From: a virus
IMG/VR virus record: IMGVR_UViG_3300024264_000074
Coordinates: 1 to 40,992 of that record
Strand: one strand, 5' to 3'
Length of the DNA: 40,992 bases
Shown: in pieces, positions 1,784-33,433 of the stretch
Layout: every line of letters starts with the position of its first letter
How positions within the stretch are numbered: the stretch's first letter is position 1
Made by a program: the position numbers and the translations under genes
Notes under the pieces: generated by a model
Seen by the model: the letters and a program-made list of their open reading frames with translations, nothing else
Told to the model about the DNA's origin: nothing
Database searches by the model: none

Positions 1784-2230
1784 ATGAACGATACAGTAAA
1801 AAAAGAGGCTCCAAAAGCAGTCTCACTAAAGAGTCTAATGACTCCAACAAAAACGGTAGAATTTGACTACCCCGGTTGTGAAGGGTTCAAAGTAAAACTT
1901 TGTTACCTAGCACGTGAAGAACTAATGAAACTTAGAACTCGTTGTGTATCTCAAGTATTCAATAAGAAAACTAGAGGTTACGAAGAGAAGATGGATGATG
2001 ACAAGTTCTTAACAGAGTATACTAGTGCAGTAATTAAAGGATGGTCAGGTTTTAAACTTGGTTATGCAAAAAATATGCTACTACTAGGCGACTTAACTCC
2101 AGAGCAGGAAGAATCAGAATTAGACTTCTCTCCAGAGAATGTTGAAGTTCTTATGAAGAACTCTGGTGATTTTGATACTTGGGTAACAGAACAGGTCGGA
2201 GAGTTAGAAAATTTTACTCAGAGCAAGTAG
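1784..2230 (+). CDS. Tail assembly chaperone, G-like (zero-frame product)
   Basis: A 148-aa protein in the position of lambda gpG, between the tube protein and the tape measure. It is charged, with no membrane segment or enzyme motif. Chaperones of this type coat the tape measure protein and recruit tube subunits and are absent from the finished virion. The downstream frame 2179-2604 is in the -1 frame and overlaps this gene's end, as in lambda G/GT. A canonical slippery heptamer lies at 2209-2215, shortly before the stop at 2228-2230. Most ribosomes should make this short form and a minority the 273-aa fusion. The start ATG has a GGA-type site 8 bases upstream, beside the terminator. Confidence 0.8.
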   Translation: MNDTVKKEAPKAVSLKSLMTPTKTVEFDYPGCEGFKVKLCYLAREELMKLRTRCVSQVFNKKTRGYEEKMDDDKFLTEYTSAVIKGWSGFKLGYAKNMLLLGDLTPEQEESELDFSPENVEVLMKNSGDFDTWVTEQVGELENFTQSK

Positions 2231-2604
2231 CCTGGGCACTTGCACAGATAGAAAGAGTTTTTAACAACAACATAAGTGTAGATGCTTATCTACAAATGTG
2301 TCACCAATTAGACCAAGAACCAGACCCAGACGAAATGCCACCTGAAATAGGGGACTTCCCTTTAGAAATTCAGGAGGCTTTTCTTATACATGCAATGTTA
2401 CCAGATAGATGGGACGGAGCAAGCGGCTCTTATATGGGGAAAGACTGGGCTCCCTTAAGAGACCTATTAGATATACACGAAGTTGAAGACAAGCGCACAG
2501 TTTGCTATTTCTTGAAACACGTTGAGAGCACTAACACGATAAATATCAATGAGGAGCTTAAACGTAAGCAAGATGCCGATAAAAGGCGTGCAAAGAGCAA
2601 ATAA
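2179..2604 (+). CDS. Tail assembly chaperone, T-like C-terminal part (reached by -1 frameshift)
   Basis: This frame encodes the C-terminal extension of the chaperone fusion. It is open from 2179, where only a TTG could act as a start and no ribosome site is seen, so independent initiation is unlikely. Entry by frameshift at 2215 adds 129 residues to the first 144 residues of the upstream gene, giving a 273-aa GT-like protein. The extension has a helical acidic part (DQEPDPDEMPPEIGDFP), a Trp-containing middle and a basic Lys/Arg-rich tail. In lambda the T domain binds major tail protein and is needed for tube assembly. The tape measure gene starts 3 bases after the stop. Confidence 0.8.
   Translation: MGNRTGRRVRKFYSEQVAWALAQIERVFNNNISVDAYLQMCHQLDQEPDPDEMPPEIGDFPLEIQEAFLIHAMLPDRWDGASGSYMGKDWAPLRDLLDIHEVEDKRTVCYFLKHVESTNTININEELKRKQDADKRRAKSK
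2209..2243 (+). promoter_or_regulatory. Programmed -1 ribosomal frameshift signal
   Basis: In the zero frame the sequence reads A AAT TTT at 2209-2215, which fits the X XXY YYZ rule for simultaneous -1 slippage. After a 7-base spacer (2216-2222), GCAAGT at 2223-2228 is the exact reverse complement of ACTTGC at 2238-2243. This gives a 6-bp hairpin with a 9-base loop, at a spacing typical for stimulatory structures. The first base of the zero-frame stop TAG is in the stem. After slippage translation continues Tyr-Ser-Glu-Gln in the downstream frame. The heptamer and complementarity are seen directly; function follows from the conserved G/GT mechanism. Confidence 0.85.
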
Positions 2605-2607
2605 ACA

Positions 2608-5600
2608 ATGGCGAGTAAAAAAGTCGAAGCAGCAGAGATTATTATTAAAACCACAGATGGTGGTTCTTTTAAAATTTTTGGGCAAAAAGCAAAAAAGGCA
2701 AAAGATGCTGTCGAAGGGCTTGGCGGAGCTGCACATAATACTGATCGCCGAATCAAAGGTGTAACCCAACAGTCTTCCAACGCAACAAAAAACTTTAGTA
2801 AGCAAGCACAAACCATGCAAGGTGGTATTGTTGCTGTTTATGCAACTATTGCTGCTCAAGTATTTGCTGTTTCAGCGGCATTTCAATTCTTAAAATCCTC
2901 AATGGAAACCCGAAACCTCATAGAGGGCCAAAAGGCCTTCGGGTCCGTCACGGGTGTAGCGTACAAAACCCTAACTAAAGACTTACAAATGGCAACCGAA
3001 GGTATGCTAGACTTTAAGGCGGCCGCAAGTTCTGTAGCTATCGGTACTGCTTCTGGTCTAAGTGCAAGTCAAATGACCGCACTAGGAACAGCAGCAAAGA
3101 ACGCATCTATGGCACTAGGCCGAGATTTAACAGACTCATTCAACAGGTTAGTTCGAGGTGTGACAAAAGCCGAACCAGAACTATTAGATGAATTAGGTAT
3201 TGTTTTAAGACTAGAAAATGCTACTAGAGACTACGCAACGGCTGTAGGTAAAGCTAGAGAGGATCTAAATGCTTTTGAAAGAACGCAAGCTGTATTTAAT
3301 GATGTCATGGAGCAAGCCGCAACAAAGTTTGGTAGAATAACCGAACTGATGGATCCGAACGCTTTTGCACTTGGACAGCTTACAAAAGAAATTGACGATT
3401 TAGTACTAAGATTCCAAGAACTCTTAATTCATGGGCTTTTACCTATGATTACCTTTTTTAAAGACAATGCCGCAGCACTTGTTGCAGCTATCGGTTTATT
3501 TGTTACTCCTATCATAAAAAGCCTACTCCCAGACTTAGATGCGTCTATACTTAAGTCCTCTGAAGCGCAAAGAGATGCTCTAGATAATATGGGAGCATCT
3601 TATAGAGCTGCGAGCCAGGAAGCAAAGACCGCATTTGCAGGTATAAGAAAAATAACCGAAGCAGATATTAACGAATCAGCAGCTGGGTTTGAGTCTTTAG
3701 GAATTAAAGGTAAAGGCGATGCTATAATGGAGGCCAAAAGAAACAAAGACGGCTCTCTTTCAAAGAAAGGAGGCCAGGTTGACACAGGGTACAAACAGCT
3801 AAACAGACGACAAGTAGCCGCGTATAGACGAGCAATTAGCGAACAAAAAGGCATCTATATGAAGATGACTAAAGAAAATCAAGCAAGATTTAAACGCTAC
3901 TTAGCCATTCAAGAAGCTCAATTAAATAAGAGCCAAAAAGTTCAAATAGGAATTGTAAAACGAGGCCAGATGGCAAAAGATGCTATTGTTAGAGCCGGTG
4001 TTACGGTGTTTGCAGGAGCAGAAGCAGCTAAGCTACAAATAGCAAAAGCAGGCGCTATAGCTATGAATGCAGTTATGAGTATTGCAGGAATTCTTGGAGT
4101 AGTCGCTATGGTTATCGCTGGGGGTAAAGCACTATTTGATTATTTTGCAAAATCAGATAAAGCGGCAATGAAGCTAAAGAAAGAAACAGAAGAAGTTGCT
4201 AGCAGACTAAAAGACATAAATGAAGAAATGGAACGCATGGGCAAAGTACGTGGAGAAGGATTACTAGGTCTTGTTGATGGAGTAGCCCAAACCGGAAAAG
4301 CACTACAATCAGCAGATGTTACTAAGCTAGTTGCTAACTATAATCAGGAGTTAAAAAAGTCAGGTAAAACAGCAAAAGAATTTGCAAAAACTGATCTTGG
4401 ACAGGCGTTTGCACAACAAGCCTTCCACATAGAACAACTTGCACCTGATATGAAAGGATTCCAGAAAGACTTAATGACAGGGGCTAAATCCGGCAAAGCT
4501 TTTAAGCAAATTGCTGTAGATATAATTGATGGGGCACAAGCCTTACAAAGATTTGGTGATAATACTAAATCAGTTAATAAACAAATTGAATCTACTATAG
4601 GAAGAATGGCAAAGTTACCTTTCCAAGATTTAATGAAGCCTCTTCAAGCTTCTATTGATGATTTTGCTCTTTCTATGATTCGTATGATATCCAGAATAGC
4701 AGAAATGAAGGGTATGATAGCAGAGGCAAAAAGTCTATCATCAGAATTTGGACAAGACATATTTACCAAACGTCAGGCCACTATTAAAGGCTCCGCACCT
4801 GGCGTTTCAACGTCGTACGAAGTGACGGACTTTGATCAAGCCGCAATGGAACAAGCAAGGAACAAGCTGCTTGGTAGTGGAGCACTCGGAAGGTACTCAC
4901 AAGATGCGCTGGGCATGAAGAATATGTCCCAACAACTAGGACTAAACGATGGCTCGAAATGGAATGACAATGCATATGAAATTGATTTTGATCCTGATAG
5001 AAGCATGATAGACATCTTAGACGATCTACTATCTATAGAAGGTAACGCGGATAAAATCGGAGCTAAGTTTGGTCAGAGTGCAGATGAAATTAAGGTTATG
5101 TCAGACGCACTTGATAAAGCTGAAGACGAAATGAAGTTAATGCAGCTTACTAATCTGACCAATATAGACTTATTGAGTAAAATGACTAACATTCAAAAAG
5201 AATCTCTTGGGTTAGATGCAACAAAAATAGAGAATGCACAAACACTTGCAAATGCAGGAGTGGGAAGTAACAAAGGCGTGGCGATGGCTAAGGCTCAATT
5301 TAAGGTTGACCAAGCAAATCAGAAGGCAACGAAAGCAGGTATAGATCTGAAAATAGCAGGAGCCAATAAAGAACTTGAAGTAAATAGACTATTAGACAAA
5401 CTAGAAGTTGATGGAGTGATAACTGCAGACCAAAGGCTCGAAAGAGCAGGTGACGCAACAAAACTAGAGGAATTAGCACTTGATCACGCAGGTGAGAACT
5501 ATAAGACTCAAGTACTCGCAGTAAACAACGGCAAAAAAGCTGTTGAAAATAAAACTGCAGAAGTAACTCTAAGTGGGACGTTGGTTACTAATGCAGGTGC

Positions 5601-6777
5601 CCAACTTACATTAGATCAGGCAAAAATTAACATACAGTTTCAAAAACTAGCAGCAATCAGAGAAGAGATAAGACTGCAAGGATTGTTAAATGATATAACT
5701 AGAGGCTTAAAGACTAGCAACAAGTTTGGATTTGCAGCAGCACAACAAAAGCATGGAGCAAAAGGCGATACAATAACAGCAAAACAGAATATAAATAACG
5801 ATAAGTTAGGTACTAACCTTAAGAATATCAATGCAAATGCATCAACAGCCGGCTTTAAGGCAGGAGATGATATTGGAGCAGCAATTGATGGCTTAGATAA
5901 GAAGAAGGATGATTATCAAGAAGCACTTAAGTTTCTTCAAGCTAGGGCTGCGCTACTAGAAACACAAAAGAACCTTACTGCAGACATGACTGCTTATACT
6001 GGAGAGGCTGCAAAATATATTACTGACCAACTGGGGACACAAAACGAAATTCTTGAATTTAAAAGAGAGCAAGTATTTACCTTAAACCCTGCAGAAAAGA
6101 TTTTCCAAGAACAAAGGCTGGCACATATAAAGCAGTTTGGAAATGATACAGAGTTCAATAAAGAAAAGGTAGCTGAATTAGCTGTCGAACAAGCAAATCT
6201 AAATATTGAAATGGATTTAATGGACGGAATTCAAAGTACATTAGAAAATGGTTTTGTATCTATGTTCCAATCACTTGTAGATGGCACTAAGTCATTTAAA
6301 GACTCTATGAAAGATTTAGCCAAATCAGTACTTGCTGATTTAGCAGCAATGTTCTTAAAAGCCGCAGCGTTAAAAATGATGCTGGCCTTTATGCCAGGAG
6401 GCGACAGCGTAATGAGCTTCTTACAAGGCAAGAGATACGGTGGGCAGACCACACCTGGTGGAAAAGGGTATGCATCTGGTGGAATTGCAGACGGACCAAA
6501 TTCAGGATACTTAGCTACCCTACACGGCAGAGAAGCTGTAGTACCATTAGGAAACGATAGAAGTATTCCTGTTGAAATGCGTGGCGGTGGAGGCGGTGGA
6601 AACACAGTTAATGTTTCTATTAGTATGAATGGACAAGGACAAGGATCATCACAAGTATCAGGTGACGGTATGCAAGGATTAGGAAGAAGTATCGGAAATA
6701 TGGTACAACAACATTTACAACAAGAAATGAGACCTGGTGGATTATTAAATCAACAAGGCGCAAAAGGTAGATCATAA
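2608..6777 (+). CDS. Tail tape measure protein
   Basis: A 1389-aa protein that should set tail length and sit inside the tube, as expected for the longest gene after the chaperone pair. It is mostly helical and rich in Ala, Lys, Gln and Glu. It has hydrophobic segments near residues 70-100 and 270-300, a strong one near 485-515 (MSIAGILGVVAMVIAGG), and one near 1240-1265. The Gly-rich C-terminal end (KGYASGGIADGPNSGYLATL, then HGREAVVPLG) is a hallmark of tape measure proteins. Using the usual ~0.15 nm per residue, the tail would be roughly 200 nm, an inference. No peptidase or lysozyme motif was recognised. The stop overlaps the next ATG as TAATG. Confidence 0.93.
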   Translation: MASKKVEAAEIIIKTTDGGSFKIFGQKAKKAKDAVEGLGGAAHNTDRRIKGVTQQSSNATKNFSKQAQTMQGGIVAVYATIAAQVFAVSAAFQFLKSSMETRNLIEGQKAFGSVTGVAYKTLTKDLQMATEGMLDFKAAASSVAIGTASGLSASQMTALGTAAKNASMALGRDLTDSFNRLVRGVTKAEPELLDELGIVLRLENATRDYATAVGKAREDLNAFERTQAVFNDVMEQAATKFGRITELMDPNAFALGQLTKEIDDLVLRFQELLIHGLLPMITFFKDNAAALVAAIGLFVTPIIKSLLPDLDASILKSSEAQRDALDNMGASYRAASQEAKTAFAGIRKITEADINESAAGFESLGIKGKGDAIMEAKRNKDGSLSKKGGQVDTGYKQLNRRQVAAYRRAISEQKGIYMKMTKENQARFKRYLAIQEAQLNKSQKVQIGIVKRGQMAKDAIVRAGVTVFAGAEAAKLQIAKAGAIAMNAVMSIAGILGVVAMVIAGGKALFDYFAKSDKAAMKLKKETEEVASRLKDINEEMERMGKVRGEGLLGLVDGVAQTGKALQSADVTKLVANYNQELKKSGKTAKEFAKTDLGQAFAQQAFHIEQLAPDMKGFQKDLMTGAKSGKAFKQIAVDIIDGAQALQRFGDNTKSVNKQIESTIGRMAKLPFQDLMKPLQASIDDFALSMIRMISRIAEMKGMIAEAKSLSSEFGQDIFTKRQATIKGSAPGVSTSYEVTDFDQAAMEQARNKLLGSGALGRYSQDALGMKNMSQQLGLNDGSKWNDNAYEIDFDPDRSMIDILDDLLSIEGNADKIGAKFGQSADEIKVMSDALDKAEDEMKLMQLTNLTNIDLLSKMTNIQKESLGLDATKIENAQTLANAGVGSNKGVAMAKAQFKVDQANQKATKAGIDLKIAGANKELEVNRLLDKLEVDGVITADQRLERAGDATKLEELALDHAGENYKTQVLAVNNGKKAVENKTAEVTLSGTLVTNAGAQLTLDQAKINIQFQKLAAIREEIRLQGLLNDITRGLKTSNKFGFAAAQQKHGAKGDTITAKQNINNDKLGTNLKNINANASTAGFKAGDDIGAAIDGLDKKKDDYQEALKFLQARAALLETQKNLTADMTAYTGEAAKYITDQLGTQNEILEFKREQVFTLNPAEKIFQEQRLAHIKQFGNDTEFNKEKVAELAVEQANLNIEMDLMDGIQSTLENGFVSMFQSLVDGTKSFKDSMKDLAKSVLADLAAMFLKAAALKMMLAFMPGGDSVMSFLQGKRYGGQTTPGGKGYASGGIADGPNSGYLATLHGREAVVPLGNDRSIPVEMRGGGGGGNTVNVSISMNGQGQGSSQVSGDGMQGLGRSIGNMVQQHLQQEMRPGGLLNQQGAKGRS

Positions 6778-20530: not shown

Positions 20531-22066
20531 ATGGCACAAGTAATTAAAATTAAACGAAGTACGTCTACTTCAGCTCCAGGGTCTCTTGTAGCTGGTGAGT
20601 TAGCCTACTCTTCGAATAGTAATAAGCTATTTATTGGTCATCCTACTACTAATGCAGTAACTGCAATCGGTGGAGCTCTATACGTTGAGATGTTAGACCA
20701 CACTGCTGGCACACTAACAGCAAGTTCAGCTGTCTTAGTTGACGCTAATAGTAAGATTGATCAATTAAAGACAGGCAACATAGTTGTAACTGGCTCTAGC
20801 AATACAATAAGCACTTCATCAGGAAATCTAACAATTGCACCTACTAGTAATTTAGTACTTACTCATGGTGGAACAATTGATCTCGATGGACAAGCAAACT
20901 CAATAACAATGCCGGATAACCAAGCGGCAGCTGTCGACTTCAATGAAGGAGGCACTTCTTACCTAAAATTCGTAACTACTAACTCTGGAGAGAAAGTTGT
21001 TGTCGGAAAAGATATGGACACTGCATCTATTGATGTAACTAGTGGAAATCTTAAGGTAGGTTCAACAAAATTCACAGTAGCTTCTGGTACTGGTAACACA
21101 GTAATTCAGGGGACAGTTAATGTACAAGACGCAGTTGATTTAGATTCTACACTTAATGTAGATGGCAACACAACTCTAAATGGTAATGTTACTTTAGGTA
21201 ACGCAGGTTCGGACACCGTTACTGTTACAGGTACTGCAACATTCACACCTTCAGCGGACTTTGACGGAGGCTTTACAGTTGCCGGATCGCAGACTGTTGA
21301 TGTAGGTGGAAATAGAATATTAAATGTAGGAACTCCTACATCAAGTACTGATGCAACTACAAAAGCATATGTTGATAGTGTAAAACAAGCACTCGACATC
21401 AAAGACTCAGTTAAATTAGCTTCAACAGCTAATATTACGGGAACTTATGATAATGGGGCTGGTACATTAACGTATGATGCTACCGGTGTACAAGCAGTAG
21501 ATGGCGTTAACTTAGCACTTAATGATAGAGTTCTTGTTAAAAGTCAAACTACTCAAACACAAAACGGTATATACAAAGTCACAACTGCTCCAGCAGTAGG
21601 TGTGGCGGGAGTACTTACAAGAGGAATAGACGCTGACTCAAATAGTGAAGTTACAGGCGGAATGTTCTGTTTTGTAGAGGCAGGAACAGTTAACGCTGAT
21701 AATGCATTTGTATTAACTTCTATAACTGGAGCAGCAACACTAGGGACAGACAATCTAGTATTTACACAGTTCTCAGGAGCAGGTCAAATTGACGCAGGTA
21801 ACGCCCTTACAAAAACAGGGAATACTCTTGCAGTAGATGTAGATAACAAAACAGTTTCTCATAACAGTGGAACAGCCTTAAGTTTAAAAGGTATTTCAGC
21901 AACATCTAACGGAGATATCCTATACGGAGCCAACGGGGCTAACGGTGGATACTCTAGGCTATCTATAGGCTCTTATGACTCTACTAATAGCGTAGGACAA
22001 ATACTACAAGTAGGAGCAGCTTCTACAGTAGCATGGTCTAATACATTAGATGGGGGTACATTCTAA
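20531..22066 (+). CDS. Tail fibre protein with 'IKIKRS' N-terminal attachment motif
   Basis: A 511-aa Thr/Ser/Asn/Gly-rich fibre. The N-terminus (MAQVIKIKRSTSTSAPGSL, then GELAYSSNSNKLFIG) is a widespread attachment module in marine phage fibres. The body (residues ~60-250) is a beta-rich repetitive shaft of GNITLGN-type turns. From about residue 265 there is a distinct domain with TSSTDATTKAYVDSVKQALD and YDNGAGTLTYDATG, seen in many phage fibres, followed by a Gly/Asn-rich tip domain. It probably forms a trimeric side fibre that binds the host surface. The next gene repeats its first ten residues almost exactly. Junction TAATG. Confidence 0.8.
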   Translation: MAQVIKIKRSTSTSAPGSLVAGELAYSSNSNKLFIGHPTTNAVTAIGGALYVEMLDHTAGTLTASSAVLVDANSKIDQLKTGNIVVTGSSNTISTSSGNLTIAPTSNLVLTHGGTIDLDGQANSITMPDNQAAAVDFNEGGTSYLKFVTTNSGEKVVVGKDMDTASIDVTSGNLKVGSTKFTVASGTGNTVIQGTVNVQDAVDLDSTLNVDGNTTLNGNVTLGNAGSDTVTVTGTATFTPSADFDGGFTVAGSQTVDVGGNRILNVGTPTSSTDATTKAYVDSVKQALDIKDSVKLASTANITGTYDNGAGTLTYDATGVQAVDGVNLALNDRVLVKSQTTQTQNGIYKVTTAPAVGVAGVLTRGIDADSNSEVTGGMFCFVEAGTVNADNAFVLTSITGAATLGTDNLVFTQFSGAGQIDAGNALTKTGNTLAVDVDNKTVSHNSGTALSLKGISATSNGDILYGANGANGGYSRLSIGSYDSTNSVGQILQVGAASTVAWSNTLDGGTF

Positions 22067-22275
22067 TGGCGCAAGTTATTAAAATTAAAAGGTCAGAGAC
22101 AAGCGGAGGCACCCCCACACCTAGTGATTTAGCTACTCATGAAATCGCTATGAATCCGACCGACAAAAAGATTTATACTAAGAACTCAAATGGCGATATT
22201 GTAATCGTGGCTTCTCATTCAGAAGCAATCGCAACTGAAGATGATATTTTAGCACTTAGTATAGCATTAGGATAG
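22066..22275 (+). CDS. Short protein copying the fibre attachment motif
   Basis: A 69-aa protein whose first ten residues (MAQVIKIKRS) are identical to those of the preceding fibre. Its next part (PSDLATHEIAMNPTDKKIYT) aligns with the same module (GSLVAGELAYSSNSNKLFIG). Only this module and a short helical end (EDDILALSIALG) remain, with no shaft or tip. It may be a free-standing attachment unit, a decoy, or the remnant of a second fibre. It starts in the fibre's stop (TAATG) and lies in frame with clean gene borders, so I treat it as a real gene. Confidence 0.65.
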   Translation: MAQVIKIKRSETSGGTPTPSDLATHEIAMNPTDKKIYTKNSNGDIVIVASHSEAIATEDDILALSIALG

Positions 22276-22279
22276 CATA

Positions 22280-22612
22280 ATGGCATCAGCATTTAAAACT
22301 AAAACTGCAGTAAATATAGGTACATCTTTAACAAGTGTCTATACCGCTCCCGCAAATACTACCGTCACCGTAATTGGTTGCTACATATGTAATCAAAGCG
22401 GAGGAGCTATTGAGGGCACTGTTGAATTTTATGATACTAGTGAGTCCCATCACGCTACTCTAGTTAAGTCAACTCCAATACCGAGTGGCTCAACAGTAGT
22501 AGTAATCGGTGGAGATGGTAAAGTAGTTCTTGAAGCTGGTGATATAATTAAAGTACAATCAAACGTTGTAAGCTCGATAGACGTAACTCTATCGTATTTG
22601 GAGCAGACATAA
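22280..22612 (+). CDS. Small beta-sandwich virion protein
   Basis: A 110-aa protein with a regular beta-strand pattern (LTSVYTAPANTTVTVIGCYI, TVEFYDT, VVVIGGDGKVVLEAGD, SSIDVTLSYLEQT) and no membrane segment or catalytic motif. Similar small proteins lie among fibre genes in marine phages and may be fibre-head or adaptor domains. It starts 4 bases after the previous stop and ends one base before the next ATG, so it belongs to the same fibre operon. The family name is not known to me. Confidence 0.6.
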   Translation: MASAFKTKTAVNIGTSLTSVYTAPANTTVTVIGCYICNQSGGAIEGTVEFYDTSESHHATLVKSTPIPSGSTVVVIGGDGKVVLEAGDIIKVQSNVVSSIDVTLSYLEQT

Positions 22613-22613
22613 C

Positions 22614-25600
22614 ATGCCACTCATAGGAAAAGAAAATCACTTAGTCTCCACGCTAGAGGCAAACGCAGTAGGGACTACAGAAATTGTAAGTAACTCTATT
22701 ACTGCGAGTGAGATCGCTGGGAACGCAGTCGGCTCATCAGAAATTGCAGCAAACGCAGTAGGCACCTCCGAAATAGCAACTAATGCTATCGGGGCAGCAC
22801 AATTACAGGGCGTGGCAGTAACAGCCGTAGGAGATAATTCAATTGACGCAGCAGCTATAGCTTCTAACTCAGTAGACTCAGCTCAGCTCGTATCGGGCAG
22901 TATAGATACTATACATATCGGATCAATTCAAGTAACAGCGGCTAAATTAGCAACTGACTCAGTAACTACACCAAAAATAGCAGATAATGCTATTACTACA
23001 GTAAAAATTGCTACTAACTCAGTAGGTTCAGAGGCAATTGCAAATAACTCTATTACAGCCACACAAATACCGAGCGGAACAATCACAGCAGATTTGTTAG
23101 CGTCAGACTCAGTAGATAGTGCAGAAATAGTAGATGGAAGCATTGATACCGCGCATCTTGGTAACTTACAAGTTACTGAAGGAAAAATAGCAAATAATTC
23201 TATCACAGCTGCAAAGATAGCAGCAAACGTTGTAGGTACGTCAGAGATAGCACAAAATTCTATCACAGCGACGCAAATACCAGCAGGTACAGTCGTAACA
23301 GACTTACTAGCAGATTTAAATGTTACTACTGGAAAACTAGCTGCAAATGCAGTTACTACTAATCAGATAGCACAGAATCAAGTAACAGCACATCATATAG
23401 CAGATGGCAGTATTACAGCAGTTCAATTATCTACAAACTCTGTAGATTCAGCAGAACTAGTAGATGGGAGTATTGATAGCTCACATTTATCAACAGGTTC
23501 AGTCATTACGACAAAAATAGCAGACAATGCTATTACAGCAGCCAAATTACCTTCTGGAGTTATCGCTTCAGACCATATTACGGACGGTACTATTGTATCG
23601 GGAGATATTGCAGCAAATACTATAGTAACAGGGAATATAGCAGACAACGCCATAGATGGCACTAAAATCGCGCAGAACTCGATACTTACCCGACACATTG
23701 ACGATGCTCAGATAGTCACTTCGCATCTACTGGATGCGAATGTGACAACTGCTAAAATAGCCGATGCTAATGTAACGACTGCAAAAATATTAAATGCTAA
23801 CGTAACGACAGCAAAGATAGCCGCTAATAATGTTACTTCAGCAAAAATTGCTACTGACCAAATTTTATCAAGACATCTAGCAGCTAATACAGTAGATACT
23901 GCAGAAATAGTAAGTGGCTCTATTGATGCTATTCATATAGCTACTGATGCAGTAATAACAGCAAAAATACTAGATGCTAACGTAACGACAGCAAAGATAG
24001 CAGATAACGCAGTCACTGCCGCTAAAATTGCAGATGGAAGTATTACTAGCACACAACTGGGAGCTAACTCAGTAGATAGCGCGGAACTTATTACTGGTAG
24101 TATAGATACTATCCATATCGGCGCCTCACAAGTCACAACAGCAAAAATAGCAGATGACAACGTAACTAATGCAAAAATTGCAACCAACGCAGTAAATGCT
24201 GATAGCATAGCAGCAAACGCTGTATCTGCCGCAGAACTTAAATCAGATGCATTAAGTGGACAAACCATGTCAGGTAATGTTATCTTTTCAGGAGATGTTA
24301 CAGTATCAGGATCTAGTTTTATAGCTTCTGCTACTACAATCACTTCTGGGGACTCTCTCATATCGTTAGCTACTGGAAACAATAGCTCTGATGCAGTAGA
24401 TATAGGTATCTATGGATTATATGATACATCGGGTTCACAAGATTTATACTCTGGTATATTTAGGGATGCAGATTCTTCTGGAAAATGGAGACTCTTTAAG
24501 GACTTACAAACACAACCAACTACTACAGTTAACTTAAGTGCTGCAGGGTACACAGTAGCTACATTAGTAGCAAACATAGAAGGCAACGTAACAGGAGCTG
24601 TAACAGGAAATGCAGATACAGCGACAACTCTAGCTTCTGCTAGAAATATTGGCGGAGTATCTTTTAACGGTTCAGCAGATATCAACTTACCGGGTGTTAA
24701 CGCAGCAGGTAATCAAGATACTTCAGGTAACGCAGCAACAGCTTCCGAAGCTGTTATACTATCTACTGGAAGAACAATTGGAATGACTGGAGATGTCGTT
24801 TGGACGTCCGCCTCTTTTAATGGCTCAGCAGCAGTAACAGGTAGCGCAACAATTCAAGCAAATGCTGTAGAATCAGCAATGATAGCAGAGAATAATATTA
24901 CTGCACGAGAAATTGCAACAAACGCAATTGTTAGTGCATCTATTGCTCAGAACTCTATCCTAACCAAACATATAGATGACGCACAAGTTAATACGGCACA
25001 ACTAGCAGGTAACTCTGTAACAGCAGCTAAGATACAGACAGACGCTGTAGGAACGGCAGAAGTAGCAGCTAATGCTATAGACGGTACTAAGATAGCTTCT
25101 AACAGTATTCTTACTAGACACATTGATGATGGACAGGTTACTACAGACCAAATTTTGGACGGTACAATCGCCACAGGAGATATTGCAAATAATGCTATCT
25201 CTAGCGCAAAAATTGCTACCAATTCCGTAACAGCAGAGAGTATTGTAGCTGGTTCTTTAGATGCTTCGCATTTAGCCGCTAACTCAATAGACTCCTCCGA
25301 ATTAGTTTCTGGTAGTATAGACACTATACACTTAGGAGCGCTACAAGTTACATCAGCAAAACTAGCAGCTGACTCTGTAATATCAGGAAAAATAGCTGCA
25401 GGTGCTATTAGTCAGTCAACAGATTTTGGAGCAGGAGTAGTGGATTCTACCGCTCTAGCTACTGATTCGGTTATCGCAGGTAAGATAGCCGCTAATGCAG
25501 TAACTTCTGCTAAAATAGGAGCTAATCAAGTAGGTAGTTCCGAGATAGCACAAAATGCAGTAACAGCTACCCAAATTCCTAGTGGGACAATTGTAGCAGA

Positions 25601-26249
25601 CTTAATTGCTGCAAACGCAGTTGATAGCTCAGAAATAGCTACAGGTAGTATTGATACTATCCATCTCGGTGCGCTTCAAGTAACAGCAGCAAAACTAGGG
25701 GCTAATTCTGTAACAGCAGCAAAAATAGCAGCTAATGCAGTTGGTGCAAGTGAGATTGCAAATAATTCTGTAACTAATCTACAATTATCAAGTGCTGCAC
25801 TTAGCGGCAAAACGATGTCTGGCACGGTTAACTTTAGTGGTAATATTACTTCAGAAGGGAATGTAACACTAGGCAACGGAACATCAGATACTGCTAAAGT
25901 AAGTGGAGATCTGAATATACAAGACGTGGCTCATTTAAATGTAGCTACTCTTACTAGTAACTCTACAGGGCAACAAACGCTCGATACTGTTGCTAAAGCT
26001 ACGTATAGAACTTGCAAATGGTTAGTATCGGTAACTAATACTACTGATGGAGACTATCAAGCAATTGAAATTTTGTGCTTCCATGACGGAACTACAGCTT
26101 ATCTAACGCAGTACGCATCTATTTTCGACAATGGAGCACAGGCTACTTTTGATGCGGATATAAGTGGTGCTAACTTAAGATTAAGAGTTACCCCAGCATC
26201 AACAGACAACATGACATTCAAAGCCATTAGGCAAGCAATCGAGGTATAA
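22614..26249 (+). CDS. Long tail fibre built of decapeptide repeats
   Basis: A 1211-aa fibre. Two long arrays (about residues 12-545 and 750-1060) consist of 10-residue units of the form N-[SA]-[IV]-T-x-x-x-I-A-x, for example NSITAAKIAA and NAVGTSEIAQ, with variants GSIDTIHIGS and NSVDSAELVS. The regular Ile/Val/Ala positions suggest a left-handed beta-helix-like or triple-stranded shaft. Between the arrays is a globular domain (~545-750) with DSSGKWRLFKD and a Gly/Asn-rich end. The last ~150 residues (YRTCKWLVSVTNTTDGDYQA through LRLRVTPASTDNMTFK) form a beta domain common at the tip of marine phage fibres, likely the receptor-binding head. No chaperone domain is seen. Confidence 0.82.
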   Translation: MPLIGKENHLVSTLEANAVGTTEIVSNSITASEIAGNAVGSSEIAANAVGTSEIATNAIGAAQLQGVAVTAVGDNSIDAAAIASNSVDSAQLVSGSIDTIHIGSIQVTAAKLATDSVTTPKIADNAITTVKIATNSVGSEAIANNSITATQIPSGTITADLLASDSVDSAEIVDGSIDTAHLGNLQVTEGKIANNSITAAKIAANVVGTSEIAQNSITATQIPAGTVVTDLLADLNVTTGKLAANAVTTNQIAQNQVTAHHIADGSITAVQLSTNSVDSAELVDGSIDSSHLSTGSVITTKIADNAITAAKLPSGVIASDHITDGTIVSGDIAANTIVTGNIADNAIDGTKIAQNSILTRHIDDAQIVTSHLLDANVTTAKIADANVTTAKILNANVTTAKIAANNVTSAKIATDQILSRHLAANTVDTAEIVSGSIDAIHIATDAVITAKILDANVTTAKIADNAVTAAKIADGSITSTQLGANSVDSAELITGSIDTIHIGASQVTTAKIADDNVTNAKIATNAVNADSIAANAVSAAELKSDALSGQTMSGNVIFSGDVTVSGSSFIASATTITSGDSLISLATGNNSSDAVDIGIYGLYDTSGSQDLYSGIFRDADSSGKWRLFKDLQTQPTTTVNLSAAGYTVATLVANIEGNVTGAVTGNADTATTLASARNIGGVSFNGSADINLPGVNAAGNQDTSGNAATASEAVILSTGRTIGMTGDVVWTSASFNGSAAVTGSATIQANAVESAMIAENNITAREIATNAIVSASIAQNSILTKHIDDAQVNTAQLAGNSVTAAKIQTDAVGTAEVAANAIDGTKIASNSILTRHIDDGQVTTDQILDGTIATGDIANNAISSAKIATNSVTAESIVAGSLDASHLAANSIDSSELVSGSIDTIHLGALQVTSAKLAADSVISGKIAAGAISQSTDFGAGVVDSTALATDSVIAGKIAANAVTSAKIGANQVGSSEIAQNAVTATQIPSGTIVADLIAANAVDSSEIATGSIDTIHLGALQVTAAKLGANSVTAAKIAANAVGASEIANNSVTNLQLSSAALSGKTMSGTVNFSGNITSEGNVTLGNGTSDTAKVSGDLNIQDVAHLNVATLTSNSTGQQTLDTVAKATYRTCKWLVSVTNTTDGDYQAIEILCFHDGTTAYLTQYASIFDNGAQATFDADISGANLRLRVTPASTDNMTFKAIRQAIEV
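22650..24240 (+). repeat. First decapeptide array of the long fibre
   Basis: About 53 consecutive 30-base units, each encoding a variant of NSITAAKIAA, in perfect codon register. Third codon positions and several codons differ between units, so the periodicity is held at protein level. A higher-order pattern is visible: blocks such as NSVDSAELVS-GSIDTIHIGS-xQVTAAKLA recur several times. Confidence 0.85.
24860..25800 (+). repeat. Second decapeptide array of the long fibre
   Basis: About 31 further 30-base units of the same decapeptide type, resuming after the central globular domain. The block NSIDSSELVS-GSIDTIHLGA-LQVTSAKLAA closely repeats blocks in the first array, which suggests copying or recombination between the two arrays. 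Confidence 0.83.
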
Positions 26250-26252
26250 AAA

Positions 26253-26471
26253 ATGGGACAAAAATTACAATTCAATATTGAAGACGCAGGTCTTAGTGTT
26301 GACGGAACAGAAATAGTTAACAGTAGCCGACAGGTTACTAATCTGGACGTACCAGGTACAAAAATGACGGGGGTTATTGCAGCAGCAAGATTACCGTATA
26401 CTATAACAACTTCTGCACCGTCTGGAGTAGGTTCAACATCAAGCGGTCACGTTTGGTACGTTTACTCATAG
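26253..26471 (+). CDS. Small fibre-operon protein, hypothetical
   Basis: A 72-aa protein between the two giant repeat proteins, 3 bases after the fibre stop. It has alternating hydrophobic residues (KLQFNIEDAGLSVDG, RQVTNLDVPG) and ends in SGHVWYVYS. The segment LPYTITTSAPSG resembles junction segments in fibre proteins. It may be a fibre-tip or connector subunit. No known family recognised and no enzyme motif. Confidence 0.55.
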   Translation: MGQKLQFNIEDAGLSVDGTEIVNSSRQVTNLDVPGTKMTGVIAAARLPYTITTSAPSGVGSTSSGHVWYVYS

Positions 26472-26479
26472 GAAACTAA

Positions 26480-29400
26480 ATGGCGATTTATGTAAACGAC
26501 GGAGGTACTCTCCGTACGATACGATTTATTGCGGTCAATGATGCAGGCACGGTTCGTCGTGTCCATCACGTTTATGTAAATGATGGAGGGACTGTTGCAG
26601 GCCCGTTTGATGCAATCCACAATACTGCTAGAACTACTAATACTGAGACTACTTTTGTTTCAGGAACGCAAGAAACTGCATTCTCCACTACATGCTCCTT
26701 CGAAACAAATGTAAATACTAGTACAATATTTGACACAGACAGAGACACCACCACCACTTTTAACACTACTAGAGCTACGGGAAGCGTAATTGCGACTACT
26801 AGGTCTACAACAACTGTATTTAATACTACTACATTATTTAGCACCACTACAGCGTATGCAACTACTCGTGATACTACTACAACGTTCAATACTACTACGA
26901 ACTTTACTACGACCACAACATATGCGACTACTCGTGATACGACGACAGCATTTAATACTACTACGAACTTTACTACCACCACGACGTTCAATACTACGTT
27001 AGATACAACAACTGTATTTAATACTACTACAAACTTTACTACAACTACTACGTATGCAACTACTCGTGCTACTACTACTACGTTTGATAGTACAACAACT
27101 TATACTACTACGACTACGTTTGATACGAGTAGAGCAACTACTACTGTATTTAATACAACTACTAACTTTACAACTACAACCACGTATAACACGACGAGGG
27201 CTACAACAACAGTATTTAATACTACGACAAACTTTACTACTACTACTACGTATAACACCAGTAAAGCAACTACTACTGTATTTAATACAACTACTAACTA
27301 TACTACTACAACCACGTATAACACGACGCGTGCGACAACAACTGTATTTAATACTACTACAAACTTTACGACTACAACGACGTATGAGACTAGTAAGGCA
27401 ACCACTACAGTCTACAATACGACAACGACGTTTAATACTTCTTACGACACAACGATAAATACTAGTAGATCAACAGGGTTTACTAACTCTACGTCACAGA
27501 ATACAAACACAAGCTATAATACTAGCTTTACAAATGCTACTACTCGTAATACTAGTACCTCGTATAACACTAGCTTTACAAATACGACTACTCGTAATAC
27601 TACTACTTCGTATAATACTCAGTTTGAAAATGCTACTACTCGTAACACTACTACTTCGTATAATACTACCTTTACAAACACTACTACTAGGAGTACGGCT
27701 ACTGCATGGAACACGGCCACAAGTAGAACAACGGATAATGTAACAGTATCTACAAATACATCATATGCTACAAATACATCCTATGCTTGTACATTTACAG
27801 CATCTACAAATACTTGTTATAGTACAAATACTTCATATGCTTGTGCATTTACAGTAGCTACTAATACTTGTTACTCCACTGCTACAAGTAGAACAACAGC
27901 TCAAACAGCATCTACAAATACTAGTTATAGTACGAATACTTCTTATCAATGTGCGTTTACTAATAATACAGCTACTAGCAGAAGTACAGGCTTTACAGCA
28001 TCTACAAATACTTGTTATAGTACAAACACGTCATATGCTTGTCAGTTTACTAATAATACAGGGTTTACAAATAATACTGGTGCTCATACTAATAATACAG
28101 GCTTTACGAATACTACAAACACTTGTTATAGTACAAACACGTCATATGCTTGTCAGTTTACAAACAATACGAATACTAGTTACCAGACTACATTTACAAA
28201 TAATACTGGTGCTCACACTAATAACACAGGGTTTACGAATACTACAAATACGTGCTACTCTACAAATACGTCATATGCTTGTCAGTTTACAAACACTACT
28301 ACTGGGTCGAATAATACCGGCGCCCATACTAATAATACAGGCTTTACGAATAGTACAAACACTTGTTATTCTACTAATACGTCGTACGCTTGTCAGTTTA
28401 CAAACAGTACCTCTAGAAATACACAAACAGGGTACCAAACTGCATTTACAAACGCTACCGCGTATGGTACTTCTAGAAATACAAATACGTCATACAGTAC
28501 AGCGTTTAGTAATAGCACTAGCAATAGCTTTAATACGAATACATCGTGGACTACCACATATTCCACTACCTATTTAGTATATATTGATGCAGAAATTGGC
28601 TGGACGCCGGTAACTCTGAGTACATCAAGAACTACTTCTGGTACAAACGTTAGTCAGTACACATTTAACACGGCCACAAGTAGAACGACAGCAGCAACGG
28701 CAAGTACCGCGTATAACACAAGTAGAAATACAAATACCTGTTATACTTGTTTCTTCTCCAATGCTACATCGTATAACACAAACACTAGTTACCAGACTAC
28801 ATTTACAAACAATACTGGTGCACATACTAATAATACGAATACTACAAGGTCTACTAATACTAGTTACTCTACGAATACATCGTGGAGTACGAATACTTCG
28901 TATCAATGTGCTTTTTCAAACAATACTGGTGCACATACTAATAATACGAATACTACAAGGTCTACTAATACTAGCTATGCTACTAATACTTCGTATGCCT
29001 GTGCATTTACAGCAGCTACAAACACTAGTTACCAGACTACATTTACAAACAATACTGGTGCACATACTAATAATACGAATACTACAAGGTCTACTAATAC
29101 TAGTTACTCTACGAATACTACAAGGTCTACAAACACTAGTTATCAGTCTACGTTTACAAACAATACTGGTGCACACACTAATGATACTGCCACAAGTAGA
29201 AATACAGCCTTTACGAACAGTACAAATACTTCGTACGCTTGTACGTTTACAAACAATACTGGTGCACACACTAATAATACGAACACGTCGTATACTACTA
29301 GCTTTACAAACAATACTGGTGCGCATACAAACAATACTAATACCAGTTATCAGACACAATTTACAAACAATACTGGTGCGCATACAAACAATACTAATAC

Positions 29401-30682
29401 TAGTTACCAAACTACATTTACAAACAATACTGGTGCACACACTAATAATACAAATACGTCGTATACTACTAGCTTTACAAACCAGACTACTGGAACAAAT
29501 AGTACCTCGTATAATACTAATACTAGCAGATTAACAAATGTGGATTCAATATCTACAACGTACAATACTTCTACTAGCAAATTAACAAATGTGGATTCAA
29601 TAGCTACTAGTTATAATACTAATACGAGTAAAGTAACTCATGTAGATTCAATAGCTACTAGCTATAACACTAATACTTCGAGAGTTACTAACATTGTAGT
29701 AACAACTACTTGGAATACAAATACTGCTAGAACTACTACTTACGAGACAACCTTTGCTACTTCTAGATCAAGTTCAAGAGCTACTTCAACAAGTAGGTCT
29801 ACAACAACAGTATTTAACACTAGTACTACTACTGCAAGTTCAAGGGCTACACAAACAAGTAGAAGCACAACATGTACGTTTAATACCGCGCACTCTACTG
29901 CAAGTTCAAGAGCGACTGCGACAAGTTTATCAACTACTACAACGTATAATACTACTACTACTACTGCAAGTTCGAGGTCTACTTCAACAAGTAAGTCCAC
30001 TGTATGTACCTTTAATACGTCACATGCTACTGCAAGTTCAAGAGCAACGGCAACAACTCTATCTACTTCTACAGTATATGCCACAACATTAGGAACACTC
30101 ACTAGTAGAGCTACAGATACTACTAGATCAACTACTTGTACATTCAATACTACAACTACAACATCTAGTTCTAGAGCGACTTCAACAAGTAAAACAACTA
30201 CTTGCACATACGAGACTACTAAGTCTACTGCAAGTTCGAGGGCTACGAATACTACAAGGTCAACTACTTGTACATTCAATACTACTACCTCAACAGCTAG
30301 TTCTAGGGCGACTTCAACAAGTTTAACAACTACTTGTACATTCGATACTACAACTACAACAGCAAGTTCAAGATCTACTTCAACAAGTAGACCTACAACT
30401 TGTACCTTTGAGACTTCGGCAGGAACTACTACAACGTTCGAAACCTCAAGTACTACAGGGTCTGTATTTGCTACTACTAGAAGCACCACGAGTGTATTCG
30501 GTACTACTAGAGTAACAGATACAACAATAACAACGGAACATTTGACAACTTTTGCTACTGCAACAGCTACAAATATTTTTGAAAGAATAACTTCCGCCCA
30601 AGCTGGGACTATATTCGATACTGAAGTATCAAGCGCTTCAGATATCGGTGCCTCATATTGGGACGGATCAACATGGAGTTAA
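26480..30682 (+). CDS. Giant Thr/Asn/Ser-rich repeat protein, putative virion appendage
   Basis: A 1400-aa protein of extreme composition. The N-terminus carries three copies of a YVNDGGT-type unit (IYVNDGGTLR, IAVNDAGTVR, VYVNDGGTVAG), a known fibre attachment motif in marine phages. Blocks follow: residues ~91-321 have 22-aa units (VFNTTTNFTTTTTY plus xTTRxTTT), ~331-411 have 16-aa units (SYNTSFTNxTTRNTxT), ~417-687 and 734-1007 have Cys-containing and GAHTNNT units, ~1011-1074 have TNVDSI units, and ~1092-1317 have 22-aa SSRATSTS units. A non-repeat island lies near 690-721 (VYIDAEIGWTPV), and a unique C-terminal end follows 1318. Aromatic residues sit at fixed intervals, suggesting a repetitive beta shaft. 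SD AGGAA precedes the ATG. Function unproven. Confidence 0.75.
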   Translation: MAIYVNDGGTLRTIRFIAVNDAGTVRRVHHVYVNDGGTVAGPFDAIHNTARTTNTETTFVSGTQETAFSTTCSFETNVNTSTIFDTDRDTTTTFNTTRATGSVIATTRSTTTVFNTTTLFSTTTAYATTRDTTTTFNTTTNFTTTTTYATTRDTTTAFNTTTNFTTTTTFNTTLDTTTVFNTTTNFTTTTTYATTRATTTTFDSTTTYTTTTTFDTSRATTTVFNTTTNFTTTTTYNTTRATTTVFNTTTNFTTTTTYNTSKATTTVFNTTTNYTTTTTYNTTRATTTVFNTTTNFTTTTTYETSKATTTVYNTTTTFNTSYDTTINTSRSTGFTNSTSQNTNTSYNTSFTNATTRNTSTSYNTSFTNTTTRNTTTSYNTQFENATTRNTTTSYNTTFTNTTTRSTATAWNTATSRTTDNVTVSTNTSYATNTSYACTFTASTNTCYSTNTSYACAFTVATNTCYSTATSRTTAQTASTNTSYSTNTSYQCAFTNNTATSRSTGFTASTNTCYSTNTSYACQFTNNTGFTNNTGAHTNNTGFTNTTNTCYSTNTSYACQFTNNTNTSYQTTFTNNTGAHTNNTGFTNTTNTCYSTNTSYACQFTNTTTGSNNTGAHTNNTGFTNSTNTCYSTNTSYACQFTNSTSRNTQTGYQTAFTNATAYGTSRNTNTSYSTAFSNSTSNSFNTNTSWTTTYSTTYLVYIDAEIGWTPVTLSTSRTTSGTNVSQYTFNTATSRTTAATASTAYNTSRNTNTCYTCFFSNATSYNTNTSYQTTFTNNTGAHTNNTNTTRSTNTSYSTNTSWSTNTSYQCAFSNNTGAHTNNTNTTRSTNTSYATNTSYACAFTAATNTSYQTTFTNNTGAHTNNTNTTRSTNTSYSTNTTRSTNTSYQSTFTNNTGAHTNDTATSRNTAFTNSTNTSYACTFTNNTGAHTNNTNTSYTTSFTNNTGAHTNNTNTSYQTQFTNNTGAHTNNTNTSYQTTFTNNTGAHTNNTNTSYTTSFTNQTTGTNSTSYNTNTSRLTNVDSISTTYNTSTSKLTNVDSIATSYNTNTSKVTHVDSIATSYNTNTSRVTNIVVTTTWNTNTARTTTYETTFATSRSSSRATSTSRSTTTVFNTSTTTASSRATQTSRSTTCTFNTAHSTASSRATATSLSTTTTYNTTTTTASSRSTSTSKSTVCTFNTSHATASSRATATTLSTSTVYATTLGTLTSRATDTTRSTTCTFNTTTTTSSSRATSTSKTTTCTYETTKSTASSRATNTTRSTTCTFNTTTSTASSRATSTSLTTTCTFDTTTTTASSRSTSTSRPTTCTFETSAGTTTTFETSSTTGSVFATTRSTTSVFGTTRVTDTTITTEHLTTFATATATNIFERITSAQAGTIFDTEVSSASDIGASYWDGSTWS
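26750..27440 (+). repeat. 22-aa (66-bp) Thr-rich repeats, block A
   Basis: About ten units of the pattern V-F-N-T-T-T-N-F-T5-Y-x-T-T-R-x-T-T-T. Aromatic spacing is 6, 6 and 10 residues. Thr codons vary freely among ACT, ACA, ACG and ACC between units, so amino-acid order is kept while synonymous positions have diverged. This argues for selection on the protein and against recent slippage. Confidence 0.85.
28778..29118 (+). repeat. 101-bp exact direct repeats in block D
   Basis: Bases 28778-28878 and 29018-29118 are identical over 101 bp, offset by 240 bp (80 codons, in frame). A shorter copy of the same core (about 58 bp, CAATACTGGTGCACATACTA onward) starts at 28920. Related 57-bp, 19-codon units continue to about 29450. 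These are recent duplications, unlike the diverged repeats of block A. Confidence 0.9.
29755..30430 (+). repeat. 22-aa SSRATSTS repeats, block F
   Basis: About ten units of SSRATSTSxSTTCTFNTTTTTA type, again 22 residues (66 bp). Most units have one Cys in TTCTF and paired Ser-Arg. The period equals that of block A though the sequence differs, which suggests both blocks build the same structural rung. Confidence 0.8.
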
Positions 30683-30685
30683 AAT

Positions 30686-30907
30686 ATGGCACAGCCAAAT
30701 AACAAACCTAAACCAGGCGATATAAAAGAAGCGGATGATCATTGGACTAAGAAGTATCGTAATGACGATATAACGCCAGAGTACATCAATAGAAAGATGG
30801 AGAACCTTATGTCGGCTCTCTTTGATACAATAGGGGAGAATGAGGAGAGAATTAAAGATCTCGAAGCTCAAGTCTGGAAACTATCACAAGCAGTAAGGAC
30901 AGACTAA
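30686..30907 (+). CDS. Small coiled-coil protein, hypothetical
   Basis: A 73-aa hydrophilic protein after the Thr-rich gene, coupled to the next gene by TAATG. The N-terminal half is charged and Pro-containing. The C-terminal half (MENLMSALFDTIGENEERIK, then DLEAQVWKLSQAV) has heptad-like hydrophobics and is probably a coiled coil. It may be a fibre oligomerisation or connector subunit, or a regulator. No family recognised. Confidence 0.55.
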   Translation: MAQPNNKPKPGDIKEADDHWTKKYRNDDITPEYINRKMENLMSALFDTIGENEERIKDLEAQVWKLSQAVRTD

Positions 30908-31785
30908 TGGCTTTAGACGCGTTAGCTTTAAATGAAGAATTAGGTGATGTTCCAACTCACTTTATGAAATCAGGGAGTTGCATGCCTCCCAAAGAAAGAC
31001 TTGCTACAATGCTAGAATTTCAAAGGAGAGTACTCCCTAAAACACATAGAGGAGTAAAATTTGAATTTGACCTTTGGTATAATACGAATGAATTAAGAAC
31101 TATTAGAAACTTCTTATACACCGACTTTCTAGGGGATGGAATTTTTATTCGTGTTAACACTATAAAGATAAACGATAGAATAATGCATAGTATTGCTGAT
31201 TCCGATATTAAGATAGACGAAGAAAGAATACAAAAAATTATTGATAATCTAGGAAATAAATATACATTACAAATAAATCACGATACTTTTGATAAGGTTG
31301 TGTTTCCGCCAGGAAGTAACTTAATACAAGGCGGAAAAAATGTAATGGATTGGAAAAAACTTGACCAAAAGGTCAGAGAAGGGTTTATAATTAAACCACA
31401 CCCTATCACAGCGCACGTTTGGGTTGCTAAGTATAAGGAACGCTACGGCGCAGATAAGGTACTAAATAAAAAGTATGGTGGGTCAGAAATATTATCAAAG
31501 TGTTCTGACTTAGCATTTTGCCCGAATAGTCAAATGGGCATAGAAGGGCTGCTTCTAGGAAAAAATATTCATTCAATAGCTACTCCCAGAGTTGCTAGAG
31601 AGAAGAATCACCTAACATATGAAGCAATTTATCAAGGCATCGCAGGAAAAGAGTGTGGATCTAGAACTGCTCTTTTGAAAATATTATCCAGTAAAAGATC
31701 TGGCATAGTATTTCACTATGACGATGATGCAGAGGAACGTGTCGAGAGGTATCTCGAACAATTTTGGGAATATACATTAAAATGA
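30907..31785 (+). CDS. Capsule/Kdo-transferase-like glycosyltransferase (GT-B)
   Basis: A 292-aa protein whose C-terminal half resembles the capsule polysaccharide biosynthesis family (KpsC/KpsS, Kdo transferase type). Diagnostic parts are KPHP at residues 163-166 and SQMGIEGLLLGKNI at 208-221, the nucleotide-sugar-binding end of GT-B enzymes, where a small residue-Gly-Glu-hydrophobic-Leu-Gly-Lys run is conserved. The N-terminal half has no recognised domain and is short for KpsC. It may add a sugar to a virion protein or host glycan. It is translated from the preceding gene's stop (TAATG) and overlaps the next by ATGA. Family assignment moderate, substrate unknown. Confidence 0.55.
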   Translation: MALDALALNEELGDVPTHFMKSGSCMPPKERLATMLEFQRRVLPKTHRGVKFEFDLWYNTNELRTIRNFLYTDFLGDGIFIRVNTIKINDRIMHSIADSDIKIDEERIQKIIDNLGNKYTLQINHDTFDKVVFPPGSNLIQGGKNVMDWKKLDQKVREGFIIKPHPITAHVWVAKYKERYGADKVLNKKYGGSEILSKCSDLAFCPNSQMGIEGLLLGKNIHSIATPRVAREKNHLTYEAIYQGIAGKECGSRTALLKILSSKRSGIVFHYDDDAEERVERYLEQFWEYTLK

Positions 31786-32768: not shown

Positions 32769-33433
32769 TGTTTCGTAGTATTCAGCTATTGTCTCAACTA
32801 ATTAGGTATAAGCCCAATCAACCAGATAATGCAGACCTAATAGCTAAGGTTGTATTACACTTCACAGGAACTTCAATCGATCATCAAATAGAACTCTGGT
32901 CAAAGACTGATACTGGCCAGCGTTACCTTGCAGGCGAACGTATAATAGATAATATTGAATCTTTTCGCACTAGAGATGAAAACACCTTAGGACATCAATA
33001 CTTACAATTTATGGATAAATATTACTTTGATAAATTAGGGAGTATGTTAGATTTGAATAAAAACGGTAAAGTAGGTAATAATACAAAACAAAAATATGGA
33101 TTGTTTATTATGGACTGCCATGACTTTCTTCATGTTATAACTGGATATCCGCCCACTCCCCACGGAGAGCTAATGCGTATAAAAATCTATAAACAATATG
33201 AGGGTAGAGGTTGGGCAGCAGTCGATGCTGTAGGCAAGCTTTGGGCATATAGTAAAGGAATAAAAGAAGCAAAAAGATATCGCGAACTTGCCCAAGAAGC
33301 TAGACAGACTAGAAAATTAGTAACTAATTATATATTTGAAGATTGGTTCGAAATGTTAGGGTGGCATGTCAATAAAGTTCGGAAAAATCTCAGCACCAAA
33401 TCGACAACCCTTTACGACTATAAAAGTCTTTAA
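32768..33433 (+). CDS. coq4-like: Coq4-family ubiquinone biosynthesis protein
   Basis: A 221-aa protein with the Coq4 signature. The zinc motif HDxxHx11E is complete: H118-D119-F-L-H122, then 11 residues to E134, in CHDFLHVITGY ... HGELMRIK. Family landmarks align in order: GQRYLAGERI (compare GAQILQERPRI of human COQ4), ENTLGHQYLQFMDK (compare GSLGREYLRFLD), and a C-terminal NYIFEDWFEM segment (compare LYYERRWEQS). Coq4 is required for coenzyme Q assembly and has been linked to the C1 oxidative decarboxylation step. It binds zinc and lipid. As the last gene on the + strand, it overlaps the converging GT29-like gene by 4 bases. A phage copy could sustain respiratory quinone during infection, an inference. 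Confidence 0.85.
   Translation: MFRSIQLLSQLIRYKPNQPDNADLIAKVVLHFTGTSIDHQIELWSKTDTGQRYLAGERIIDNIESFRTRDENTLGHQYLQFMDKYYFDKLGSMLDLNKNGKVGNNTKQKYGLFIMDCHDFLHVITGYPPTPHGELMRIKIYKQYEGRGWAAVDAVGKLWAYSKGIKEAKRYRELAQEARQTRKLVTNYIFEDWFEMLGWHVNKVRKNLSTKSTTLYDYKSL

Follow-up and report, generated by a model that had tools for sequence, protein, structure and literature searches.

The locus described here raises the question of how two overlapping reading frames, situated between the genes for the major tail protein and the tape measure protein of a virus, come to be translated. The window analyzed is the whole of IMG/VR virus record IMGVR_UViG_3300024264_000074 (40,992 bases), in which the first of the two frames (1784–2230, plus strand, 148 aa) ends with ..GAA AAT TTT ACT CAG AGC AAG TAG. 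Our answer, to which we assign a probability of about 94% from sequence comparison, is that the junction carries a programmed −1 ribosomal frameshift signal in a tail assembly chaperone gene. The elements named in the first-pass annotation are present on the plus strand: a slippery heptamer A AAT TTT (2209–2215), conforming to X XXY YYZ in the frame of ORF 1784–2230, a 7-nt spacer (2216–2222), and a hairpin (2223–2243) composed of the 6-bp arms GCAAGT (2223–2228) and ACTTGC (2238–2243) and a 9-nt loop (2229–2237). The zero-frame stop codon, TAG at 2228–2230, had been placed inside the stem, which is correct for its first base (2228) only, the remaining bases lying outside. The −1 frame (2215–2604, TAA at 2602–2604) encodes a T-like domain of 129 aa after the shift, and the fusion that had been predicted, of 144 + 129 = 273 aa with the junction ENF-YSEQ, is indeed an open frame to 2604, directly upstream of the tape measure gene.

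Among the 10,815 codons of the 21 plus-strand window genes scanned, 29 in-frame XXXYYYZ heptamers were found, and that at 2209 alone precedes a stem of 6 bp or longer; as such a stem occurs at 89 of 4,715 sampled window positions, about 0.5 coincidences of heptamer and stem are expected by chance. The RNA fold of 2216–2250 has a predicted energy of −9.3 kcal/mol (z −0.99), with 29 of 200 shuffled sequences folding equally well, and a claim of significance for the window hairpin from the single sequence was dropped on this z value. Judged from the window by itself, the cassette is suggestive, not decisive.

The genes around the junction form a tail module. The chaperone pair is placed between the plus-strand genes of the major tail (tube) protein (333–1730, 465 aa; PHROG 3575 major tail protein, 9.6e-51; Pfam Phage_tube_2, 1.4e-6) and the tape measure protein (2608–6777, 1389 aa; PHROG 3779 tape measure, 4e-37), and the module continues with lambda-like tip genes (Pfam Phage_min_tail and Phage_tail_L) and with genes matching minor tail, tail assembly, and central tail fiber J families in PHROG. 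The zero-frame, G-like tail assembly chaperone belongs to PHROG 313 (1.3e-17), and the −1 ORF matches the tail assembly chaperone family PHROG 3914 (2e-14). With regard to lambda-like G/T chaperones, the searches gave a match to the XkdN-like PHROG 389 (8.8e-4) and one to Pfam Phage_TAC_5 below the cut-off. Among annotated phages, 887 records match the zero-frame ORF, every one at less than 60% identity and mostly from phages of Vibrio, Salmonella, Escherichia, and Klebsiella, and 335 records, all Vibrio phage, match the −1 ORF; the fetched relative records that carry taxonomy are Demerecviridae. The AlphaFold2 model of the zero-frame protein (pLDDT 80.4) retrieves chaperones of Vibrio, Salmonella, and Proteus phages at ranks 1–4 in BFVD (E 3e-12 to 1.4e-8), and a fold search at E 0.001 gave no PDB match either for this model or for that of the T domain (pLDDT 90.9). 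A fold link to lambda and HK97 was dropped, as the HK97 chaperone 2ob9 matched only weakly (E 1.4).

Beyond the tail fiber J-like gene, the window contains large plus-strand ORFs (20531–32768), of which the 1211-, 1400-, 292-, and 334-aa products have no Pfam match at 0.01 and a 511-aa product matches PHROG structural and unknown families only. At the end of the structural module are two genes that are unusual phage cargo, one with a Pfam Coq4 (ubiquinone biosynthesis) match (32768–33433, plus strand, 1.9e-9) and one with a short glycosyltransferase family 29 match (33430–34101, minus strand, 3.6e-7). A search of genome contigs with one peptide pattern found a single relative, a 16-kb contig (PBHZ01000026.1) binned in a Euryarchaeota MAG, which may reflect either the host or a binning error; a host guess from this one binned contig was set aside.

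The collection of relatives comprises 402 sequences, that is, the window and 401 loci, one of which is the window again and several of which are contigs fetched repeatedly. In 399 of them, one of three signals is found at one and the same Phe codon: A AAT TTT with the second frame in −1 (type A, 223 sequences), G GGA AAC or G GGA AAG with the second frame likewise in −1 (type G, 120), and TTT CGN with the second frame in +1 (type P, 56). Of the remaining three, one is unclassified but fits the +1 type on inspection, and two break off short of the junction. Every classified sequence has 90 or more open codons in the expected frame, or keeps that frame open to the locus end (13 of type A), and the opposite shifted frame falls short of 90 codons throughout. 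Apart from the 157 legible sequences of the motif-blind set described below, the environmental loci, which were picked by protein similarity, divide into 64 of type A and 120 of type G among 184 legible sequences; the named T5-like phages with their IMG/VR copies, picked by source, give 53 legible sequences, 52 of type P and the unclassified one; and the five other loci are one of type A and four of type P, the latter environmental and likewise with TTT CGN and the +1 frame.

That the two proteins are translated separately, the second ORF starting at TTG 2179 or at ATG 2296 (inside the domain), perhaps by coupled initiation, is very unlikely, though the likeliest of the alternatives. In its favor, a TTG does open the −1 frame of the window, many relatives have downstream ATGs, and in several T5-like records the second ORF is entered as a gene of its own that begins about 60 nt beyond the first stop. 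The window is, however, one of only 13 among the 120 distinct type A sequences with a −1 start before the heptamer. In the other 107, the −1 frame runs from its upstream stop to the heptamer without an ATG, GTG, or TTG, and in 14 of the 120 that stop directly abuts the heptamer. The first downstream start lies 36–135 nt away (114 of the 120 with the codon listed), and the stretch that precedes it changes in the manner of coding sequence: from the zero-frame stop up to the earliest start available, the third-position share of changes equals nearly that of the body in type A (0.52 vs 0.53, 35 columns) and type P (0.50 vs 0.52, 20 columns), and is 0.43 vs 0.57 in type G, where only 6 columns are available. 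All type A sequences tested have 90 or more open codons in the −1 frame, or a −1 frame that stays open up to the end of the locus. Separate initiation would, moreover, have no need of the frozen third bases of the heptamer.

This freezing could in turn be ascribed to a protein constraint or some other nucleotide constraint, with the hairpin incidental, an explanation that we consider hardly tenable even though E-N-F are highly conserved as residues and the window stem by itself is non-significant. Among the first 80 relatives, fetched by protein similarity, GAA AAT TTT ACN is kept in each of the 78 whose locus includes the junction. In a motif-blind set consisting of the window and loci fetched by protein similarity (159 fetched, 157 legible, 91 distinct), A AAT TTT is present in 157 of 157 legible sequences and GAA AAT TTT is unchanged in all 91 distinct ones. 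In the codon test on this set, 67 columns (M and W left out) are at least 90% conserved in residue, and the only three without a synonymous change are the GAA, AAT, and TTT of the heptamer, against 1–27 codon changes in each of the other 64; the third bases of E, N, and F are thus fixed while other conserved residues switch codons. An earlier count over the motif-defined classes (120 type A, window included, 36 type G, and 45 type P distinct junctions), which also included a tree-based codon-change count, had given 4–35 changes for the other columns, its invariance being partly built in because the classes were defined by the motif; the motif-blind repeat agrees with it at a smaller margin. 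The Leu codon immediately 5′ of the heptamer uses all six codons over the 120 distinct type A junctions. None of the 184 legible environmental relatives has neither A AAT TTT nor G GGA AAC/AAG, and none of the 402 sequences has an open −1 ORF with a broken heptamer and no substitute. Selection evidently acts on the codon-aligned heptamer beyond coding needs, and its conservation in related phages, which had been proposed as a check, holds without a synonymous exception in the motif-blind set.

The second half of that check, conservation of the stem, gave a covarying structure. The 114 type A rows whose zero-frame stop is in the usual position yielded 87 different 42-mers, in which a 10-pair stem is paired in 76.7% of cells, compared with 19.5–39.3% when one arm is slid by 1–3 columns. 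The covariation score over the 87 distinct rows is 0.151 vs 0.073 in shuffles that ignore the relatedness of the rows (0 of 500 as high) and 0.023–0.095 in slid registers, and 39 double-change cells are found vs 11.3 in shuffles (0 of 500), the +1 slide still giving 26; in two of the five measures, how many pairs show a double change (270/500) and how many pair types occur (242/500), there is no excess over shuffles. The commonest compensation affects the pair with its 5′ base two positions ahead of AAG, where G-C (52 rows) is replaced by C-G (9) or U-A (9). Several members off the main register have an alternative stem at similar spacing, such as CAAGTAGAGA/TCTCTACTTG in one type A relative (L059, fold z −7.1). 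In the 45 nt 3′ of the site, the median z is −3.52 in type A (74% of 119 rows below −2), −1.81 in type G (45% of 49 rows), and −0.94 in type P (12% of 51 rows), compared with 0.10, 0.81, and −0.29, respectively, in the upstream segment and −0.59 (20% below −2), 0.04, and 0.18 further downstream. An internal Shine-Dalgarno stimulator was rejected as a general element, because an SD-like 4-mer within 18 nt upstream occurs in only 27 of 124 type A rows, and in 0 of 49 type G and 0 of 51 type P rows. With the relatives added, the invariance of the heptamer and the covariation of the stem settle the case, and the identification of the cassette appears secure. Joining of the frames by transcriptional slippage, or by a sequencing artefact, merits next to no credence: the heptamer does include a run of four T, but three A and four T in a row are short for polymerase slippage, the arrangement recurs in 223 type A sequences (some of them re-fetches of one contig; 124 distinct), and selection is on the codon-aligned heptamer.

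A programmed −1 shift of the lambda G/GT kind is thus the reading we infer, supported by the identity of the genes, the adjacency of the tape measure gene, the invariance of the heptamer, and the covariation of the stem, and backed as well by the third-position bias of changes from the zero-frame stop to the first start. In the predicted mechanism, most ribosomes would terminate at TAG 2228–2230 to give the 148-aa G-like protein, while a minority, meeting the downstream hairpin when positioned over A AAT TTT, would slip as tRNA-Asn and tRNA-Phe re-pair one base back, on AAA TTT, and read on to 2604 to give the 273-aa GT-like fusion. By analogy with lambda, for which the roles of G and GT are described in the consulted part of PMC5009743, the G part may bind the tape measure protein and the T part may recruit tail-tube subunits; the slip itself, its efficiency, and these roles of the two products are put forward as inferences.

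The heptamer of lambda is G GGA AAG. The window resembles the lambda gpG/gpGT system in having a chaperone gene before the tape measure gene, a heptamer near the end of the first ORF, and a −1 fusion, and G GGA AAG itself occurs in five distinct relatives. It differs in its A AAT TTT heptamer with the covarying hairpin and in its proteins, which fall in PHROG 313 and 3914. The first-pass annotation had regarded the locus as a useful extra case for its departure from the lambda heptamer; the departure is real, but the description undersells a family whose other members use G GGA AAC/AAG or a +1 TTT CGN. In type G, CTG or TTG is followed by GGA AAC or GGA AAG one codon 5′ of the Phe, which is TTC in 7 of 36 distinct sequences. 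In type P, the Phe codon is followed by CGT, CGA, or CGC (the last in L398–L401), and among the T5-like loci picked by source, 52 of 53 have TTT CGN and at least 90 open codons in the +1 frame. The 49 distinct sequences of this T5-like set share 20 conserved columns, of which TTT alone has no codon change, the others having 2–16, and TTT CGN is uniform over 20 representative lineages. Such uniformity is not expected from usage, as TTT accounts for 451 of the 744 Phe codons and CGN for 266 of the 621 Arg codons in the P loci (ORFs of at least 150 codons, near-copies left out). In the window, the Phe codon is followed by ACT and the second ORF is in −1, so that the UUU_CGN +1 pattern does not apply to it.

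A −2 shift in T5-like phages was considered because of the deposited record of phage Shivani (KP143763), in which a joined CDS annotated as 'tape measure chaperone' gives a fusion of 277 aa, the length of a −2 reading, compared with 276 aa for a +1 reading; the record thus apparently annotates the fusion as −2. The whole text of the Shivani paper (PMC4342426) does not mention the joined chaperone CDS. The −2 reading was disfavored, since TTT is preceded by 9 kinds of codon in 45 sequences and tRNA-Phe would have no conserved partner two bases back, whereas a move from TTT to TTC pairs fully at +1. For T5, the junction predicted from a +1 shift is HLDTF-VAQK, and a −2 shift would insert a second Phe (DTFFVAQK).

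The sequence left unclassified is from Aeromonas phage AhSzq-1 (NC_047949, represented by L146, L404, L405, and L407) and has TTT CGA and, if TAG is read through, a second ORF in +1. Late genes of this phage are open only with TAG as a sense codon: in 14 kb (L404), ORFs of at least 150 codons number 16 under this assumption vs 4 under the standard code, and the chaperone frame passes six TAG codons, but no TAA, before it ends at TGA. At L407:2796–2870 is a tRNA with anticodon CTA (labeled Pyl by ARAGORN). This T5-like phage record, which is annotated in fragments, apparently has a reassigned amber codon.

The relationship among the three types was compared through the domains that the signals join. 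Profiles of the C-terminal domains align between types A and P with a probability of 99.8 in hhalign (E 3e-29), between A and G with E 1.3e-33, and between G and P with E 4.5e-28; the N-terminal alignments (A5 and A6) show no exception to the Phe of the shift site, which is F144 in the window protein. On a tree from which the signal was left out (83 representatives and 131 columns; unrooted, with few columns and some long P branches), one branch (100/99) separates type P from all −1 types, and the five signal sub-states need nine changes. Rows with GCA AAT TTT sit among the type G rows, pointing to turnover of the heptamer there, and as the C-terminal domains are homologous across types, the direction has apparently been switched at one orthologous site. 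We consider it probable that orthologous chaperones with the same two domains have switched shift direction at a single codon, being −1, with turnover of the signal, in the environmental members and +1 at UUU_CGN in T5 and its kin.

Referring to known systems, the T5 pair T5.143/T5.142 of the Demerecviridae has orthologous N- and C-terminal domains and the same Phe switch codon as the window, but its second ORF is in +1, at TTT CGN and without marked downstream structure. PHROG 313 spans both T5 domains, and at least one fused entry is therefore likely to be included in that family. The T5-like relatives share UUU_C, with CGN in the A site, with the +1 site UCC_UUU_CGU of influenza PA-X and with UUU_C sites of other viruses, and UUU_C +1 sites seem to favor CGN according to the part of PMC3498833 (2012) consulted; PA-X belongs, however, to another gene and host system, and the window itself is −1. 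The same source, in that part, describes tail genes with non −1 shifts in Mu (−2, given as the sole known natural case) and in Listeria phage and SPP1 (both +1), whereas in the present family the direction differs within one set of orthologs. Shift efficiencies on record are 7% for a phage chaperone cluster (PMC3711429) and about 2.2% for Mu (PMC3498833). The G-T frameshift of long-tailed phages is presented as −1 in the part of PMC5009743 consulted, with +1 very likely in one haloarchaeal myovirus, and phage Sugarland, 'similar to T5', is described without a predicted frameshift signal in PMC6256483. Among the listed titles and abstract openings and the passages covered, we found no report of a +1 UUU_CGN shift in T5-like phages or of A AAT TTT in a tail chaperone gene; among the matches listed for AAATTTT with slippery and phage, the sole one concerns a Wolbachia phage hydrolase (PMC10299305).

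The signal of the window as such is one more −1 chaperone signal of a known kind. Frameshifting in tail chaperone genes is textbook recoding, usually presented as a conserved −1 event, and what is new in this family is the changed slip site, together with an apparent change of direction at one orthologous codon. What has been kept is the protein architecture and the residue that joins the frames; the heptamer and, apparently, the direction have changed, making the evolution of a frameshift signal directly testable, for instance as to which intermediates function and which ratio of the products is under selection. If the switch is real, the UUU_CGN +1 mode of influenza PA-X would have a cultured bacterial counterpart in the T5-like phages, and the 'GT' signal missing from T5 would have been located. 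The finding amounts to a prediction, both concrete and cheap, for this model phage, which is reported to be without such a signal.
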